This document shows positions 12,233 through 19,916 of a DNA stretch of 64,000 bases, one piece after another. The stretch is from Mitsuaria chitosanitabida ATCC BAA-476 = NBRC 102408 (GTDB lineage: Bacteria > Pseudomonadota > Gammaproteobacteria > Burkholderiales > Burkholderiaceae_C). The stretch's first letter is position 1. Every line of letters begins with the position of its first letter. The translations under genes were made by a program, and so were the position numbers. The notes beneath the pieces are model-generated. The model was not told where the DNA came from, made no database searches, and saw nothing but the letters and a program-made list of their open reading frames with translations. The DNA lies in the NCBI RefSeq assembly GCF_001598255.1, contig NZ_BCYP01000010.1:62001-126000 (forward strand), read 5' to 3'.

Positions 12233-12625
12233 GGAGGAGCTCCGCCTCTCGGCGGTGTCATCTGGGCAAGGGACACAAGGTGAGCCGGCGATTGTAGAGG
12301 CGCCCCACCCGGACCCCGCGGGACGCGGCCGGAACATGCAGGGGACACCGGCAGGGGACAAGCAGGGGGAATCGGCGCGGTCCGGCGCCAGGCGCGGCGC
12401 GGGCGCACGATCGCGTGACGGCCCCTGTCGAAAGTGGGCCCCCTGACGCGTCGTGTCAGCAGGGACGCCGTTTCCCCCCGAAGAGGCATTCCGTCGGTCG
12501 GGGCGGTGGCGATACAAAACGAAAAGCAGCGATACCGCGGTGAGATGCCCCGGCGAGCGGGCATGGGAATCATGGCGACATGGATTCACCGCCCGGACAC
12601 CCGGGCTTTACCGAGGAACCGCACC
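12233..12625. other. Divergent intergenic region, valS / Spy-like gene
   Basis: 393 bp without a convincing gene. It must carry the valS promoter and the promoter for the 12626-15630 operon. The only structured element I see is the CTGACGCG palindrome at 12443-12459. Short open frames here lack start signals and protein-like composition. Confidence 0.5.
12443..12459. repeat. Palindrome CTGACGCG-T-CGTGTCAG, copy 1
   Basis: 8-bp arms around a single central T; one mismatch breaks perfect symmetry (CGTGTCAG instead of CGCGTCAG). The same 17-mer, perfect this time, and followed by the same CAG, recurs at 39502-39518. Both copies sit in intergenic DNA. Confidence 0.55.
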
Positions 12626-13330
12626 ATGCATTTGTTTCGACGCTGGAGTCACCCCCATGAACGTCACCACCATCACGTCGGCCACGATGGCCGCTTCGGT
12701 CCTTTCGGCCCTGTGTGTGACGCTGGCTTCCACGGCCCGCTGCCCGTCGACGGACCCTGGTTCCGCTTCGGCGGTTTCGGTGGCTTCCCGCATGGCTGGG
12801 GAGGCATCGGCGGCTTCGGACATCGCCACGGCCACCACGGTCGCCATGGTCACCACGGTGGTCATGGGCGGTCCGGCTTCCACCGGGGCCTGGGACCCGA
12901 TGCCCAAGGCCGCCGCGGTGAAAGGCTGCAAGCCCGGGCCAGTGCCCTTCTGGACCTGAGCGAGAGCCAGGAGCTGCGGCTCGAGCACGTGCTCGAGCTG
13001 CTGCGCGCCGCGCGGCGCGCGCTGAAGGCGCTGGCGCGCGGCCCCGAGGTGGCCCGTCTGATCGAGACGGACAACTTCCGCCGCGACGAGGCGCAGGAGC
13101 TCTTCGACGGCCAGATCGAGGCCTTGCGGGCGACCGGTCCGGCGCTGGTGGCCGCCTTCGGCGACTTCTTCGACGCGCTGGATTTCGACCAGCAGCAGAT
13201 GCTGCGATTCGCCCTGCGGCGCCTGCGTCGGCGCTCGGGTCGCGAGGATCAGGAGGAGCGCGACACCCGCGGCCCGCGCGGCGGCCGGCATCGGGACGAC
13301 CGCGACGAGCGCGACGGCGAGGCCTTCTGA
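12626..13330 (+). CDS. His/Gly-rich Spy/CpxP-like protein
   Basis: 234 aa. The N-terminal 85 residues are dominated by His, Gly, Phe and Arg (ERHHHHVGHDGRFGPFGP; GHRHGHHGRHGHHGGHGR), typical of metal binding. The C-terminal 120 residues are helical with two LTxxQ-like segments (LSESQELRLEHV; DFDQQQMLRF), as in Spy/CpxP chaperones and periplasmic metal sensors. Unlike those proteins it has no signal peptide: the start at 12626 (MHLFRRWSHP) leads straight into the His-rich part. A neighbouring frame does contain a hydrophobic stretch, but it stops early. The stop overlaps the next start (TGATG), so it is translationally coupled to the ferredoxin and two-component genes. Confidence 0.7.
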   Translation: MHLFRRWSHPHERHHHHVGHDGRFGPFGPVCDAGFHGPLPVDGPWFRFGGFGGFPHGWGGIGGFGHRHGHHGRHGHHGGHGRSGFHRGLGPDAQGRRGERLQARASALLDLSESQELRLEHVLELLRAARRALKALARGPEVARLIETDNFRRDEAQELFDGQIEALRATGPALVAAFGDFFDALDFDQQQMLRFALRRLRRRSGREDQEERDTRGPRGGRHRDDRDERDGEAF

Positions 13331-13653
13331 TGGACGCGCGCGAGTGCCGGCAGCCCCCGGGGCTGCTGCGGCCGGTCATCGACCGCAACCGCTGCGAGGG
13401 CAAGGGCGACTGCGTCGCGGTCTGCCCGCACGACGTCTTCCTGGTCGGCACGCTGCCGGCGAATCGCCGCCAGGAGCTGAGCCTCTTCGGCAAGCTGCGC
13501 GGCTACGCGCACGGCTGGCAGCAGGCCTTCACCCCCAATGCCGATGCCTGCCGGGCCTGCGGCCATTGCGTGAAGGCCTGCCCCGAGCGCGCGATCACGC
13601 TGGTCCGCACCCGCCACAATGGACGGCACGATGCATCGCTTGCTGCTGATTGA
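13330..13653 (+). CDS. Ferredoxin family protein, seven cluster cysteines
   Basis: 107 aa dicluster-type ferredoxin. The second motif is a full CRACGHCVKACP (Cys 74, 77, 80, 84). The first reads CEGKGDCVAVCP (Cys 22, 28, 32), with Lys25 where a 4Fe-4S site would have Cys, which fits a 3Fe-4S plus 4Fe-4S (7Fe) protein. About 40 residues separate the motifs. It starts within the stop of the Spy-like gene and overlaps the following regulator gene by 23 bp, so all are made together. Its likely role is electron transfer or redox/metal sensing for the adjacent two-component system (inference). Confidence 0.85.
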   Translation: MDARECRQPPGLLRPVIDRNRCEGKGDCVAVCPHDVFLVGTLPANRRQELSLFGKLRGYAHGWQQAFTPNADACRACGHCVKACPERAITLVRTRHNGRHDASLAAD

Positions 13654-14341
13654 CGACGACGAGGCGCTGGCCGCGCCGCTGGCGCACTACCTGGCGCGTT
13701 TCGACTTCGAGCTGAGCGCGGTGACGCGGCCCAGCGCCGCGTTCGCGCGCCTGGCCGAGGAGCGTTTCGACGCGCTCATCCTGGACGGCATGCTCCCCGA
13801 GATGGACGGCTTCGCCTTCTGCAAGCGGGTCCGGGGCGGCACGGACCCGTGGAAGGACATGCCCATCCTGATGCTGACCGCGCGCGGCGACCTGACCGAC
13901 CGCGTGGTCGGCCTGGAGCTGGGCGCGGACGACTACCTGGCCAAGCCCTTCGAGCCGCGTGAACTCGCGGCCCGGCTGCAGACCATCCTGCGCCGTGCGC
14001 GCCTGGCGCCCGCCGCGGCCGCGCCGGCCACGCTGCTGCGCTTCGAGGGCCTGGAGATCGACACCGCGCGCCGCCAGGTGTCCTCGGACGCCGGGGCGAT
14101 CGAGCTGACCAGCACCGAGTACGAGTTGCTGGTGATGCTGGCCCGGGAGCCGGGTCGGGTCTTCTCGCGCGACGAGATCCTGAACCGGATCCGCGGCCAG
14201 GACGCCGAGCTCTTCACCCGCGCCGTGGACATCCTGGTGAGCCGGATGCGCCGCAAGCTCGAGCCGCTGGAGGCGCTGAAGACGCTGCGCAACGCAGGCT
14301 ACTGCTTCGCGCTGCCGCCGCGCGGGGAGGGCGGGGCATGA
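13631..14341 (+). CDS. OmpR/PhoB-family response regulator
   Basis: 236 aa. Receiver domain with acidic pair IDDDE, phospho-acceptor Asp in LILDGMLPEMDG and Lys in DDYLAKPF, followed by a winged-helix DNA-binding domain (ELTSTEYELLVMLAREPGRVFSR; AVDILVSRMRRKLE). CpxR/RstA-like. The ATG at 13631 (MHRLLLIDDD) places the first strand as usual; ATG 13619 would add four residues. The start lies inside the ferredoxin gene and the stop overlaps the kinase start (ATGA). Confidence 0.92.
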   Translation: MHRLLLIDDDEALAAPLAHYLARFDFELSAVTRPSAAFARLAEERFDALILDGMLPEMDGFAFCKRVRGGTDPWKDMPILMLTARGDLTDRVVGLELGADDYLAKPFEPRELAARLQTILRRARLAPAAAAPATLLRFEGLEIDTARRQVSSDAGAIELTSTEYELLVMLAREPGRVFSRDEILNRIRGQDAELFTRAVDILVSRMRRKLEPLEALKTLRNAGYCFALPPRGEGGA

Positions 14342-15630
14342 GGGGGCCTCGCCATCCGTATGACCATTGGGGGCCCCGAGGTCCTCGCGGGCCGAGAGAT
14401 CCGCGCGACCCGCGCGGCCCTCACGGGGCGCAGGGGCCGGACCATCCGCCGTCGGACGACGATCCCCGCGGCCGCCGCGAGGCCCGCCATCGCGCCCACT
14501 ACGAGGAGCAACTGCGCCGCATGGAGGAGCTGGGTCATCTGCACGGGCTGAAGAAGCTCAAGCGGATGCGGCAGTTCCAGCGCTGGATGGCGATGGAGGC
14601 GGGCGCGATCCCGTTCCCGCGTCAGCGCGACTGGCGCTGGCACTGGCGCGCGCGGCACCGCTGGCATCAGCGCTGGCATCGCCATCACGCGCAGTTCCAG
14701 CATTCGCTGGGCGCGCGGCTGATCGCGATCTTCATCCTGCTGGCCTGCCTGAGCAGCGTGATCCTGTGGGGCGCGATGCAGCTGGACTACGGCCTGGTCT
14801 GGGCGGTGCCGCTGCTGCTGCTGGTGACAGGTCTTGCCTACGGCGGGATCCGGCACATGATCCGGCCGCTGCGGGCGCTGGCGGCGGGCGCCGAGGCTTT
14901 CGGGCGGGGCGACCTGAGCTATCGGGTGCTGGTCCATCACCGCGACGAGATCGGCGATCTCGCGCACCGCTTCAACCAGATGGCCGAGGACATCCAGGCG
15001 ATGCTGGACGGCAAGCGGGCGCTGTTGCTGGCCATCAGCCACGAGCTGCGCAGCCCGTTGACCCGGGCGCGGCTGCATGCCGAGCTGGTCGACGAGAGCC
15101 CCTCCAAGGCCTCGCTGCTCGACGAGCTGGGGCAGATGCGGGAGCTGATCTCCGCGCTGCTGGAGAGCGAGCGGCTCGGCAGCGGCCACCGTGCGCTGCA
15201 GGTGTCGGATTGCGATCTCGGCGCGCTGGCGCGGGAGCAGGACCAACCCGGCGTCGCGCTGCGCATCGACCGCGACCTGCCGGTGCTGAAGCTGGACCGG
15301 ATGCGCGTGCAGCTGCTGCTGCGCAACCTGGTGCACAACGCGCTGCGGCACAACGACGCGGCCGCGGGACCGGTGCTGGTCGCCGTCGAACGTGATGGCG
15401 ACGGCGCGCGCGTCACCGTCCGCGACCACGGTCCGGGGGTGCCGTCCGAGTCGCTCGCGCAGTTGGGCCAGCCGTTCTACCGGCCGGACGAGGCCCGCGC
15501 CCGCAGCGACGGCGGCGTGGGGCTGGGTCTGTCGCTGTGCCGGCTGGTGGCCGAGGCGCATGGCAGCCAGCTGCGGCTGCGCAACGCGTCCCCGGGGTTC
15601 GAGGCGTCGGTGCGTTTCGGCGCAGGGTGA
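14338..15630 (+). CDS. Sensor histidine kinase with Arg/His-rich cytoplasmic N-terminus
   Basis: 430 aa. Residues 1-125 form an unusual cytoplasmic region: collagen-like GPR repeats (about 12-33), a basic helix, then a Trp/His/Arg-rich stretch (WRWHWRARHRWHQRWHRHH, about 99-117). Two membrane helices at about 129-148 and 155-172 are separated by only a few residues, so there is no periplasmic sensor domain. HAMP, HisKA (AISHELRSPLTRA, His 235) and HATPase (NLVHNALRHND, DHGPGVP, GGVGLGLSL) follow. It pairs with the regulator it overlaps by 4 bp. The ligand is unknown; the His-rich part suggests metal (inference). Confidence 0.9.
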   Translation: MRGPRHPYDHWGPRGPRGPRDPRDPRGPHGAQGPDHPPSDDDPRGRREARHRAHYEEQLRRMEELGHLHGLKKLKRMRQFQRWMAMEAGAIPFPRQRDWRWHWRARHRWHQRWHRHHAQFQHSLGARLIAIFILLACLSSVILWGAMQLDYGLVWAVPLLLLVTGLAYGGIRHMIRPLRALAAGAEAFGRGDLSYRVLVHHRDEIGDLAHRFNQMAEDIQAMLDGKRALLLAISHELRSPLTRARLHAELVDESPSKASLLDELGQMRELISALLESERLGSGHRALQVSDCDLGALAREQDQPGVALRIDRDLPVLKLDRMRVQLLLRNLVHNALRHNDAAAGPVLVAVERDGDGARVTVRDHGPGVPSESLAQLGQPFYRPDEARARSDGGVGLGLSLCRLVAEAHGSQLRLRNASPGFEASVRFGAG

Positions 15631-15668: not shown

Positions 15669-16109
15669 ATGCCCGCCAACTCCCCCGAGACCCTGCTGCG
15701 CGACCTGGCCCGGCTGCGCCGTGTCCGTGACCGTATCGATCGCGACTACGCCCAGCCGCTGGATGTCGACGCGCTGGCCGCCGGCATCGGCATGTCGGCC
15801 GGCCACCTGAGCCGCCAGTTCCGGCTGGCCTATGGCGAGTCGGTCTATTCGTATCTCATGACCCGCCGCATCGAGCGCGCCATGGCGCTGTTGCGCCGGG
15901 GCGACCTCAGCGTGACCGAGGTCTGCTTCGAGGTGGGCTGCTCGTCGCTGGGGACCTTCAGCACGCGGTTCTCCGAGCTGGTGGGCGTGTCGCCCAGCGT
16001 CTACCGGCGCGACTCGGCGGGGGAGGCCGAGGGCATCCCGTCCTGCGTCGCCAAGCAGGTGACGCGACCGATCAGGAATCGAGAAGCGCCGTCCGGCGGG
16101 GATGCCTAG
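15669..16109 (+). CDS. AraC-family transcriptional regulator (short)
   Basis: 146 aa, essentially only the double helix-turn-helix domain: LDVDALAAGIGMSAGHLSRQFR and DLSVTEVCFEVGCSSLGTFSTRFSELVGVSPSVYRR. There is no sensor domain, so it may act as a simple activator. ATG 15669 (MPANSPETLL) is the first start after the kinase stop. Paired with the VOC gene 80 bp downstream, an arrangement common in Burkholderiales, where it probably controls that gene. Confidence 0.88.
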   Translation: MPANSPETLLRDLARLRRVRDRIDRDYAQPLDVDALAAGIGMSAGHLSRQFRLAYGESVYSYLMTRRIERAMALLRRGDLSVTEVCFEVGCSSLGTFSTRFSELVGVSPSVYRRDSAGEAEGIPSCVAKQVTRPIRNREAPSGGDA

Positions 16110-16734: not shown

Positions 16735-17667
16735 ATGGCCGCCTTTCTGTCCTCCGCCTCCCCGGCGTCGTCTCTCCCTTCGTCAGCGTCCTCGCCCGCG
16801 CCCGCGTCCGCGCCCCGATACGAGCCCTCCTTGCGCGCTCCGCGCTGGATTCCCAGCCTGCCAGGGGCCGCCGCGACCTTGCGCGTCGGCGCGCTGCTGG
16901 CGCTGACGGCGACGCTTGCCGTGCTCGCCCCCGGCGCCCACGCGCAGGTCTTCGGCGATCGCGACCCCGCCGCCGCCTCGTCGACGACGCTCGGCCTGGG
17001 CGTCGCCGGCGCCTTCCGCCAACGGCCATACGCGGGCGCCGACCGCAAGAACGACGTCGTGCCCGTGCTCTTCGTCGAGAGCCCCTGGTTCCGCCTCTCC
17101 GGTGGCGCCGCCGATCTCAAGCTGTGGCGTCACCAGTTCGCGCCTGGCAACAGCCTGGAGGCCAGCGCCCGCCTGAAGTACGAGCCCGAGGGCTACAAGG
17201 CGGGCGACTCGCCGGCACTGGCCGGCATGGACAAGCGCAAGGACGCGTTCCTGGGCGGCGGCGCGCTGGCTTGGCGCACGCCCTGGGTCGATGTCGGCGC
17301 CGAGTGGGTGGCCGACCTCGCCGGCGACAGCAAGGGCCAGAAGCTGAGCCTGCAGGTCGAGCACCGCTTCACGCTGGGCCCGTTGGGCGTCACGCCGCGC
17401 GCCAAGGCCCAGTGGCTGGACAGGAAGTACGTCGACTACTACTTCGGGGTCCGCGCGGCCGAGGTGCTGCCGGGGCGCGCGCTCTATCTCGGCGAGGCCG
17501 CCACCACCGCGGAAGCGGGCGTGCGCGTCGACTACGCGATCGGGCGCCGGCACTCGGTGTTCATCGATGCTAGCGTCACGCGTCTGCCGGACGAGATCCG
17601 GCAGAGCCCCATCGTCTCGCGCAAGGACAGCTCGCGCCTGGCGGTCGGCTACCTGTACCGCTTCTGA
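16735..17667 (+). CDS. MipA/OmpV family outer-membrane protein
   Basis: 310 aa as called. The mature part has the family pattern of short amphipathic strands (LFVESPWFRLSGGAADLKLW; GADVGAEWV-like strands) and ends in the aromatic YLYRF expected of an outer-membrane barrel. A signal peptide core (VGALLALTATLAVLAPGAHAQ) lies at residues 49-69, so the 45 Ser/Pro/Ala-rich residues before it are either an unusually long leader or a misplaced start; no better ATG exists in between. Followed after 70 bp by an OmpR-type regulator and kinase, a frequent MipA neighbourhood. Confidence 0.85.
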   Translation: MAAFLSSASPASSLPSSASSPAPASAPRYEPSLRAPRWIPSLPGAAATLRVGALLALTATLAVLAPGAHAQVFGDRDPAAASSTTLGLGVAGAFRQRPYAGADRKNDVVPVLFVESPWFRLSGGAADLKLWRHQFAPGNSLEASARLKYEPEGYKAGDSPALAGMDKRKDAFLGGGALAWRTPWVDVGAEWVADLAGDSKGQKLSLQVEHRFTLGPLGVTPRAKAQWLDRKYVDYYFGVRAAEVLPGRALYLGEAATTAEAGVRVDYAIGRRHSVFIDASVTRLPDEIRQSPIVSRKDSSRLAVGYLYRF

Positions 17668-17737
17668 CGCCGGGGCCTCTCGCGCTTCCGGCTTCCCGTT
17701 CCCCATCCCCTGTTCCCCGAGTCCCGTCGCCGTCCCC

Positions 17738-18421
17738 ATGAATCGAATCGCCCTGGTCGAGGACCATCTCCGGCTCGCCGAGCTGATCCGGCAGGCGCTG
17801 CAGACCGCCGGCATTCCCACGGACGTCTTCCACGCGATGGAGGCGGCCTGGGTCGCGCATCGCGAGCTCGGCTACGCGGCGCTCGTCATCGACCGGGGCT
17901 TGCCGGATGGCGACGGGCTGGCCCTGGTCAAGCGCTTGCGCGGCGCGGGGCAGGGGACGCCCTGCCTGATGCTCACCGCGCGCGACGCGCTGCATGACCG
18001 CGTCGAGGGGTTGGAGTCGGGCGCGGACGACTACCTCGTCAAGCCCTTCCCGATGGAGGAACTGGTGGCCCGCGTGCGCGCGCTGATGCGCCGCCCGGCG
18101 GCGGTGCGGTCCGAGCGCGCTGTCTTCGGCGACCTCGAGGTGGTGGCGGAGGAAGGGCTGCTTCGCTGCGGGGCGCAGTCCACCGCGCTCGCGCCGGCCG
18201 AGCTGCAGATCGCCGTCGCGCTGGTGCGACTGCAGGGGCGCATGGCCCGCCGCGGCGCGCTGGAGGCGGCTGCCTGGGGGCTGTCCGACGCCGTCACGCC
18301 GAACGCGCTGGACGTGGCGCTGCATCGGCTGCGCAAGAAGCTGGCCTCGGTGGGCTCGCGGCTGCGCATCGTCAATCACAGGAGTCTGGGCTATGGCCTA
18401 CAAGATCCGCTGGCCGAATAG
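17738..18421 (+). CDS. OmpR-family response regulator (PmrA/QseB-like)
   Basis: 227 aa. Receiver with acidic ED (LVEDHLRL), phospho-acceptor Asp in LVIDRGLPDGDG, Thr in LMLTARD and Lys in DDYLVKPF. C-terminal winged helix with LDVALHRLRKKL and a GYGL wing. The start at 17738 (MNRIALVEDH) is the canonical receiver start. Its last 29 bp overlap the kinase gene. The GGTAAG tandem repeat upstream of the mipA-like gene is its probable binding site. Confidence 0.92.
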   Translation: MNRIALVEDHLRLAELIRQALQTAGIPTDVFHAMEAAWVAHRELGYAALVIDRGLPDGDGLALVKRLRGAGQGTPCLMLTARDALHDRVEGLESGADDYLVKPFPMEELVARVRALMRRPAAVRSERAVFGDLEVVAEEGLLRCGAQSTALAPAELQIAVALVRLQGRMARRGALEAAAWGLSDAVTPNALDVALHRLRKKLASVGSRLRIVNHRSLGYGLQDPLAE

Positions 18422-19916
18422 CCTGCGCAACCGCGTGCTGGCGGTGCTCGCGGTCAGCATGGCGCTGAGCGCGCTGCTGGTGGGCGCGGCCGCGAGCCTG
18501 CTGTGGGATCCGTTCTCCCGCTGGGTGCTGCGCACGCAGATCGAGGACAACGGCGTCGCGCTGGTCGGGCTGCTGCGCTTCGACGCGCAAGGGCGTCCCA
18601 CCGGCTTCGACGCCCGCAAGATCGAACCGTGGGTGTTCGACAGCTTCCGGTCCGAGGTGATGCTGCGGGTCTCGGACGCGCAAGGGCAGGTCATCTTCTC
18701 GACCGATGGCCAGACGGGCCTGCTGACCCGCGACGGGGCGCGCTTCGAGCCCCGCCGGCAGGCCTTCAGCTTCGTGCGCGACGGCGTGGCGATGCATGGC
18801 ACGACCATCCCCTTCCAGCGCGACGGTCGTCAGCTGTATGGGCAGTTCGCCGTCACCGACCGGGTGGTGCTGCTGATGCGCACCTCGATCGGATTCGATG
18901 TGCTGCGGCAGGGGACGCTGGCGCTGGGCGGAACCTTCGTGCTGGTCTTCCTGGTGATCCTGCACCATGCGCTGTGGCGGGCGCTGAAGCCGGTGCGCCA
19001 GGCCTCCAGCGCGGCCCGGCGGATCGCGCCGCGCACGCTCGGCGAGCGCCTGTCCGTCGCCGACCAGCCGCGCGAGCTGCGCCCGCTGGTCGAGGCCTTC
19101 AACGCCGCGCTGGACCGCCTGCAGCGGGGCTTCCAGACGCAGCAGGACTTTCTCTCGAACGCCGCGCACGAGCTCAAGACGCCGCTGGCGCTGATCCGCG
19201 CGCAGGTCGAGCTGACCGAGCCGGGCATCTGGCGCGAGCAGGTGCTGGAGGACGTCGACCGCGTGGCTCGGCAGGTGCAGCAGCTCCTGCTGCTGGCCGA
19301 GGCCAGCGAGCCGCAGAACTACCGCATCGAGGCCATCGACCCCGGTCCCGCGGTGCGCGAGGTCTTCGACTTCATGGAGCGCGTGGCGACGCGGCGCGGC
19401 GTCACCTTGGGCTTGCGGCTGGACCCGGCGCTGTGCCTGTGGCGGGCCGACCGCGGCGCGCTGTTCACGCTGCTGAAGAACCTGGTCGAGAACGCGATCC
19501 AGCACAGCCCGCCGGGAGGCGTCGTCACGCTCGCGGCCGGGCCGGCGGGGTTCTCGGTGTCGGATCAGGGGCGGGGCGTGGACCCGCGGGACCTGCCGCG
19601 CATCTTCGAGCGCTTCTGGCGCGGCGCCGACCGGCGCGAGCAGGGCGCCGGGCTGGGGCTGGCGATCTGCACGGAGATCGCCGCGGCGCATGGCTGGCGC
19701 TTGAGCGCGCAGGGGCGGTCGCCGGGATTGGCGGTGAGATGCGGCATGACGGCCGAGGCCGAGGCGCCGGACGATCGCGACGACGAGGACAAGGACGAGG
19801 CCGGTGGCCCGCCGCCGTCACCGCGCGCGCCGATGCCGATGACCGAGCCCCCGTTCCTGTCGCGGCGCTCGAACCCGGCGGCCTACTCGCGCGCGATGCT
19901 GCGGGCGCTGTTCTGA
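18393..19916 (+). CDS. Sensor histidine kinase
   Basis: 507 aa inner-membrane kinase partnered with the preceding regulator. First membrane helix at about residues 14-36, a periplasmic domain of about 130 residues, second helix at about 172-192 (LALGGTFVLVFLVILHHALW), then HAMP-like linker, HisKA (NAAHELKTPLALI) and HATPase (NLVENAIQHSP, SDQGRGVDP, GAGLGLAI). The C-terminal 60 residues after the ATPase are acidic and Pro-rich and look dispensable. The last 34 bp overlap a gene on the opposite strand. Confidence 0.92.
   Translation: MAYKIRWPNSLRNRVLAVLAVSMALSALLVGAAASLLWDPFSRWVLRTQIEDNGVALVGLLRFDAQGRPTGFDARKIEPWVFDSFRSEVMLRVSDAQGQVIFSTDGQTGLLTRDGARFEPRRQAFSFVRDGVAMHGTTIPFQRDGRQLYGQFAVTDRVVLLMRTSIGFDVLRQGTLALGGTFVLVFLVILHHALWRALKPVRQASSAARRIAPRTLGERLSVADQPRELRPLVEAFNAALDRLQRGFQTQQDFLSNAAHELKTPLALIRAQVELTEPGIWREQVLEDVDRVARQVQQLLLLAEASEPQNYRIEAIDPGPAVREVFDFMERVATRRGVTLGLRLDPALCLWRADRGALFTLLKNLVENAIQHSPPGGVVTLAAGPAGFSVSDQGRGVDPRDLPRIFERFWRGADRREQGAGLGLAICTEIAAAHGWRLSAQGRSPGLAVRCGMTAEAEAPDDRDDEDKDEAGGPPPSPRAPMPMTEPPFLSRRSNPAAYSRAMLRALF

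Follow-up and report, generated by a model that had tools for sequence, protein, structure and literature searches.

A predicted inward-facing, Cpx-like signalling operon with an optional ferredoxin in Mitsuaria chitosanitabida

Four co-directional, overlapping genes occupy positions 12626–15630 of the forward strand in the window analysed here, a 64-kb stretch of the Mitsuaria chitosanitabida genome (G000, 5.8 Mb), and according to the list of open reading frames (ORFs) they encode a Spy-like LTXXQ protein, a ferredoxin, an OmpR-type response regulator and a sensor kinase. Judged from related sequences, the order Spy-like protein, regulator, kinase is a widespread Cpx-like operon of the Burkholderiaceae, and the window belongs to a clade across which the predicted signal peptide of the Spy-like protein and the predicted periplasmic domain of the kinase were lost jointly from an envelope-facing ancestor type. 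We propose, with a probability of about 0.6, that the genes form a Cpx-like adaptor/two-component feedback module in which the sensing face, once periplasmic, now lies in the cytoplasm.

Envelope-type and inward-type loci

A profile (A1) built on the Spy-like protein matched 100 of 299 family genomes, spread over 53 of 141 genera; the search scored nine candidates per listed genome, and the statement that the gene is single-copy rests on those. Together with the window, genomes G030 and G075 and 15 genus members, 94 loci from this search make up the 112 that we compared. The order Spy-like gene, regulator, kinase was present in all 40 family loci examined first. Among the 112, a regulator was seen in 107 and a kinase in 107; for the five loci without a kinase and for some without a regulator, either a contig end cuts the stretch or the detection rule missed the gene. 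In a class sample outside the family, 15 further genomes match A1, and their best ORFs have, by eye, a hydrophobic N-terminus.

Signal peptides and membrane helices were called over the loci by a simple hydropathy rule, and the 107 loci with a readable kinase separate cleanly into 80 of an envelope type and 27 of an inward type. In the envelope type, a signal peptide is predicted for the Spy-like protein in 78 loci by the rule and is recognisable by eye in L128 and L181; these peptides often end in a lipobox-like sequence. The envelope-type kinase has 99–163 residues between its two membrane helices in the 78 loci measured, and only one peak in L153 and L161. In the inward type, which spans six genus groups, a signal peptide is predicted in none of the 27 loci and the kinase helices are 2–10 residues apart (26 measured; L041 by eye). 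The gene valS lies within the stretch in 26 of the 27 inward-type loci, compared with 2 of the 80 envelope-type loci (L150 and L162). Three Aquabacterium-type loci (L199, L200 and L204) are inward-type and carry the ferredoxin, and valS is not in their stretches.

On a tree built by a quick method from the regulator and the kinase core without its membrane part (36 inward rows and 29 of the 80 envelope rows), a single change is enough to account for the two types. One branch separates the inward rows from the rest, with a Shimodaira–Hasegawa-like approximate likelihood ratio (SH-aLRT) support of 91, and L150 and L162, which are envelope-type and stand beside valS, are the sister of the inward clade (support of 100), inside the envelope rows. 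Given this single change and the position of L150 and L162, the most economical account is that an envelope-facing type became inward-facing at the valS locus.

The Spy-like gene of the window (12626–13330, + strand) encodes 234 amino acids without a predicted signal peptide: a His-rich N-terminus (residues ~1–95) and a helical core (~93–214). Searches with the protein find no family in Pfam at E values of up to 10 and none in NCBIfam at E values of up to 1, and its assignment rests on its relatives and its predicted fold. All ten relatives scanned pass the cut-off of 24.3 bits for LTXXQ (PF07813), with 37.8 bits for the inward-type L092 and 29–49.5 bits for nine envelope-type proteins. The core is predicted with block-mean pLDDT (predicted local distance difference test) values of 79–98 over residues ~101–205, and the ten best Foldseek rows for it are all Spy/CpxP proteins (probability of 0.91–1.00, E values of 0.022–0.12), including entry 6bie, which we take to be Spy. 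A VIA-align comparison with CpxP gave a Z score of 7.8 at rank 47, with 109 of 112 residues aligned and a root-mean-square deviation of 4.0. The median number of His residues before the core is 17 in inward-type proteins (24 loci placed) versus 3 in the others (66 placed), counts that omit three of the 27 inward-type loci and 19 of the 85 others, in which the rule did not place the start. Inward-type relatives such as L040 and L205–L209 have short His-rich N-termini that run directly into the core. The initial annotation had noted the missing signal peptide, and the prediction extends to the whole inward type, with the point left slightly open by a conserved +1 frame (see below); no hydrophobic segment precedes the core, even when the in-frame upstream extension is included.

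The kinase (14338–15630, + strand; 430 amino acids) has HAMP, HisKA and HATPase domains and, by Pfam and hydropathy, no periplasmic domain. Its hydrophobic peaks at residues ~128–146 and ~153–171 are about six residues apart, and correspond to two predicted membrane helices joined by a very short loop (residues 128–171; 14719–14850, + strand). Immediately before them lies a juxtamembrane His/Trp/Arg motif (HRWHQRWHRHHA.F.HSLGARL; residues 96–127, 14623–14718, + strand), a candidate cytoplasmic input region. Directly ahead of the first helix, 26 of the 27 kinases of the inward type and none of the 80 of the envelope type carry the pattern R[WM]H[QE]RWH, which was selected from these very data. 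The synonymous fraction of single-base codon differences is 0.75 in residues 96–127 and 0.76 in the kinase domain; a segment constrained like the kinase domain suggests that input enters there. A kinase with no periplasmic domain and a His/Trp/Arg-rich cytoplasmic N-terminus was thus correctly described at the outset, and the departure is shared clade-wide; the claim about topology is stronger than the initial annotation could have known.

The regulator (13631–14341, + strand; possible earlier start at 13619) has the receiver and winged-helix domains Response_reg and Trans_reg_C of Pfam. Overlaps of 1, 23 and 4 bp had been described for the four genes. The first (position 13330, Spy-like gene and ferredoxin) and the last (14338–14341, regulator and kinase) are as described, and the middle one is 23 bp with ATG 13631 or 35 bp with ATG 13619; 23 bp is plausible because the regulators of L040 and L054 align from near the second ATG.

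The operator and its target

Upstream of the Spy-like gene lies an operator of CGATAC-type direct repeats (12506–12549, + strand), with repeats at 12510, 12520 and 12530 and a weaker TGAGA at 12541. The spacing of 10–11 bp is as expected for an OmpR/PhoB-type regulator, and the operator is probably the binding site of the regulator of the operon itself. The consensus upstream of the Spy-like gene is shared by both types of locus (CGAaAc-AAAACGAAAc-AcagCGAtAC-CGCg.cGAgA), and a matrix that was iterated and fitted on the same set of 112 loci matches there in 110 of them. The two misses, L054 and L123, arose because the stretch had been wrongly cut, and both show the operator after correction.

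A search of the genome of the window that allows up to three mismatches finds the three-repeat pattern at a single place (control, 0), and in the 16 genus genomes the two-repeat pattern with at most one mismatch gives 17 sites, 16 of which are at the operon (control, 0). A relaxed pattern gives 16 sites in the own genome versus 14 for the reversed control, which is background, and a looser pattern in 25 family genomes gives 29 matches (21 at the operon) versus 22 control matches. Sharing of the operator, as a rule, by Fe–S or metal genes elsewhere was considered and rejected, with the looser searches at the level of their controls, although degenerate sites may exist. At the search sensitivity used, the operon itself appears to be the target, in a closed loop that would mainly control itself, because the site at the operon is the only one above background in the own genome.

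Two further features of this region are recorded. In four envelope-type loci (L121, L133, L139 and L165) the operator is ~670–680 bp before the Spy core, compared with ~200–300 bp in most envelope-type loci, and another gene may lie in between. In the window, a conserved inverted repeat, GCCCGG...CCGGGC (12591–12606), is situated between the operator and the start codon of the Spy-like gene.

An optional ferredoxin

The ferredoxin gene (13330–13653, + strand) encodes 107 amino acids. It had been described as a seven-Cys protein, which holds for the core ligand positions (Cys 22, 28, 32, 74, 77, 80 and 84) and not for the total, as C6 brings the number to eight. C22, C28, C32, C74, C77 and C80 are invariant, and C84 and K25 are present in at least 90% of 54 rows. 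Lys25 occupies the place of the second cluster-I Cys, which is the pattern of 7Fe ferredoxins when set against their canonical Cys spacing, and the structural neighbours include 7Fe ferredoxins as well as PsaC. Three-Cys cluster sites can often gain or lose iron, and a redox or iron input would therefore suit this protein. The synonymous fraction of its single-base codon differences is 0.76, indicating strong purifying selection.

The ferredoxin is present, and the four-gene order kept, in all 16 genomes of the genus (Roseateles/Mitsuaria) that were examined. In the family, 24 of 120 genomes match the ferredoxin at an E value of 0.001; five matches are strong (E < 1e-22, own genome included), of which G030 and G075 have all four genes and G045 and G083 have the ferredoxin alone, and the remaining matches are weak and mostly within long ORFs of other proteins. 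Across the genus and family searches, 17 of the 19 loci besides the window have the four genes in order, and 16 of these 17 adjoin valS; in L042 and L043 the stretch examined shows the ferredoxin and none of its three companions. Among ferredoxin relatives in named genomes (best 80 of 243 stretches), 22 loci contain all four genes, from Roseateles, Mitsuaria, Pelomonas, Aquabacterium, and Burkholderiales or Rubrivivax metagenome-assembled genomes. The gene order is thus conserved beyond the genus, by the kind of co-occurrence check that the initial annotation had proposed.

The idea that the ferredoxin is a core part of the module, and with it that of the four genes as a fixed unit, does not survive the comparison of loci, as 8 of the 27 inward-type loci lack it. 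It is, from its distribution, an added and optional part of the operon, because it is found in 19 of 27 inward-type loci and in 0 of 80 envelope-type loci. Its presence needs at least four changes on the regulator/kinase tree. In a tree of 54 of the 81 available ferredoxin sequences, 16 of 17 operon copies form one clade (95/85); the ferredoxin of L238 stands apart, and the approximately unbiased test does not reject the single-clade alternative (p-AU of 0.235). One early recruitment with later losses would fit this pattern.

A different account is that the ferredoxin has nothing to do with signalling and is a hitchhiking electron carrier or serves another enzyme, which is compatible with our proposal for the other three genes. 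The absences among inward-type loci and the four or more changes of state are what it would lead one to expect, as is the fact that 58 of the best 80 relatives lack the Spy–regulator–kinase genes in the stretch examined. However, the ferredoxin accompanies these genes only in the inward type, in a constant slot before the regulator and mostly by overlap, its operon copies largely form one supported clade and it is under strong purifying selection; we consider hitchhiking a serious but less probable explanation. In 18 loci with a solo ferredoxin, ORF reading without family scans revealed no common partner by eye. One of the solo relatives, in Nevskia, has shortly upstream a regulator-like ORF with a His-rich N-terminus (L210, 3744–4403), presumably of the PadR type.

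Proposed mechanism and comparison with known systems

In the ancestral type, a secreted LTXXQ protein of the CpxP/Spy kind would face a kinase that senses through a periplasmic domain. In the inward clade, the signal peptide of the LTXXQ protein would have disappeared and a His-rich tail been acquired, and the kinase would have lost its periplasmic domain and come to carry an enlarged His/Trp/Arg juxtamembrane segment, with the operator unchanged. By analogy with CpxP and CpxA, we propose that the kinase is restrained from inside: the cytoplasmic LTXXQ protein would rest on the juxtamembrane segment or the HAMP region, and a stress (metal or damaged protein) that occupies the protein or its His-rich tail would release the kinase. 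The regulator would then induce its own operon, chiefly more LTXXQ protein, which would close the loop. The ferredoxin, as a later addition in one lineage, may add a redox or Fe–S input, tuning the loop by its redox or cluster state. The architecture, the joint change, the shared operator and the one clear site are read from the sequences, whereas localisation, contact, restraint, signal and the part played by the ferredoxin are inferred. A bolder version, which we offer only tentatively, is that an envelope alarm was turned internal in one evolutionary step and then gated by a 7Fe-type ferredoxin, such that the His-rich LTXXQ protein and a labile cluster jointly report metal and Fe–S/redox state to the HRWHQRWH segment of the kinase, and the response of the regulator is almost confined to renewing the sensor set.

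The kinase could instead sense the membrane itself, as intramembrane-sensing histidine kinases do, with the LTXXQ protein (a cytoplasmic metal buffer or chaperone) and the ferredoxin (a redox protein) as outputs that give no feedback. The window kinase resembles that class in its two membrane helices and very short loop, the His-rich tail would suit a buffer, and as the operon is the only clear target of the regulator its proteins may be the whole output. It also carries a 127-residue cytoplasmic N-terminus in which residues 96–127, as constrained as the kinase domain, suggest an input. Moreover, the signal peptide disappeared together with the periplasmic domain of the kinase, although a protein that is output only would have no need to change in step with the kinase. 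We regard membrane sensing as unlikely.

Several points weigh against an adaptor-centred, inward-facing module. Localisation is a hydropathy prediction. A PF07813 search of the own genome at an E value of 1 misses the Spy-like protein of the window, which has no Pfam match of its own, the Foldseek E values for its core do not reach 0.001, and in VIA-align unrelated helical proteins outscore CpxP, which does not stand out for this model. The joint loss is essentially one evolutionary event, and the correlation between the two proteins therefore has little independent replication. Escherichia coli CpxP is dispensable for many Cpx signals, according to PMC11078701, so the adaptor-centred mechanism may be wrong. 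Lastly, over codons 10–40 of the Spy-like gene, synonymous differences are commoner when the codons are read in the +1 frame (436 of 997) than when they are read in frame 0 (279 of 882), although these pair counts are not independent.

This part of the gene (within 12626–12745) has low third-position variability (0.253, 0.239 and 0.207 at positions 1, 2 and 3, versus 0.195, 0.153 and 0.381 in the core), and a +1 ORF (12657–12959, MNVTTITSATMAASVLSALCVTLASTARC) runs across it; the frame is free of stops over codons 10–40 in the window and in 14 other genus members. RNA or regulatory constraint, a dual-coded small ORF or chance of composition are possible causes. The +1 peptide is hydrophobic in appearance, largely because shifted His and Gly codons read as Thr, Ala, Val and Ile, and a hidden signal peptide is unlikely because inward-type relatives outside the genus lack such a stretch. 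That the LTXXQ protein is exported through the other-frame start (ATG 12657) and a frameshift, or that the +1 frame encodes a small protein of its own, would agree with the open frame and its substitution pattern and is nevertheless very improbable, given that the window peptide has no Lys or Arg ahead of its hydrophobic part, that the shifted reading of His and Gly codons alone yields its composition, that L040 and L205–L209 pass directly from a short His-rich N-terminus into the core, that the frame in L208 opens three codons upstream of the start, and that the kinase has no periplasmic part for an exported partner to meet.

If the proposal of an inward-facing module is right, a sensor can switch the compartment that it watches while its output wiring is kept. 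Across the loci, as in a natural series, export of the adaptor and the outer domain of the kinase vanish together under an unchanged operator, an evolutionary experiment on adaptor–kinase communication that predicts which parts of the two proteins meet, and both can be tested in soluble, cytoplasmic form. A ferredoxin that gates the kinase would, if confirmed, provide an Fe–S input to a Cpx-type system.

Other genes of these kinds were seen in passing. Contig 27 of the own genome encodes a separate LTXXQ protein with a signal peptide (L273; G000:C27:102571-102837), behind which lie a regulator and a probable kinase. In 7 of the 112 family loci (L099, L103, L104, L114, L120, L138 and L168), a second LTXXQ-like protein without a signal peptide lies between the exported Spy-like protein and the regulator, the slot of the ferredoxin in the window, and similar second ORFs follow an exported LTXXQ protein in four class-level loci (L280/L292, L286, L287 and L290). 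Cytoplasmic LTXXQ partners may, on this sequence evidence, be more general and, if so, these genes would mark a wider, unrecognised class. Downstream of the operon, an AraC-type gene (15670–16109) was rejected as a member, with only short partial matches in the neighbour comparison; at 16735–19916 are a putative outer-membrane protein, which we take to be MipA/OmpV-like, and behind it a further OmpR-type regulator together with a sensor kinase that has a periplasmic region.

Of the known systems, Cpx of E. coli and Pseudomonas aeruginosa (CpxP–CpxR–CpxA/CpxS) is close in layout, with an LTXXQ adaptor, an OmpR-type regulator and a HAMP–HisKA kinase encoded together and, according to PMC12802237, regulator-type direct repeats before cpxP as before the adaptor gene here. 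PMC4160245 and PMC12802237 report that CpxP binds and restrains CpxA, and how a CpxP-like accessory protein talks to its kinase is still argued (PMC11078701). The window differs in its adaptor without a signal peptide, its kinase without a periplasmic sensor domain and its inserted ferredoxin gene; its repeats are CGAWAC and not GTAAA, and it has apparently a single target operon compared with 37 predicted target units in P. aeruginosa (both from PMC12802237). The NCBIfam CpxR model gives the regulator 150.7 bits (cut-off, 341), and the CpxA models give the kinase 106.9 (cut-off, 486) and 122.2 (cut-off, 800). The system is a Cpx-like module and not, by defining features, a member of Cpx, because by prediction it has neither the exported adaptor nor the periplasmic sensor domain, and it scores below the model cut-offs. 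Among the matches listed in the open-access literature, judged by titles and abstracts, none describes a cytoplasmic adaptor of the CpxP/Spy type, a Cpx-type kinase that lacks a periplasmic domain, or a ferredoxin or Fe–S input in a Cpx-type operon. The initial annotation did not recognise the combination as described: without the ferredoxin it is a recognisable variant of the CpxP–CpxR–CpxA kind.

Spy/CpxP periplasmic chaperones (PF07813) share the predicted helical core, and relatives of the window protein pass their Pfam cut-off, whereas the window protein is predicted to be cytoplasmic, has a long His-rich tail and falls below Pfam detection. The ferredoxin shares the Cys pattern of 7Fe ferredoxins ([3Fe-4S][4Fe-4S]; PDB 1xer and 2vkr), with one cluster-I Cys absent, and 68 residues of its model align with these two at 1.8–1.9 Å (Z scores of 8.4 and 8.3); PsaC-type 2[4Fe-4S] proteins reach equal or higher Z scores (up to 10.1). 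Also close is the envelope-type Burkholderiaceae operon (80 loci), which has the same gene order, operator and kinase core, and in L150 and L162 also the place beside valS, but has a Spy signal peptide, a kinase periplasmic domain and no ferredoxin. Set against these relatives, the window system is best called a new, inward-facing variant of a Cpx-like module, with an optional ferredoxin.

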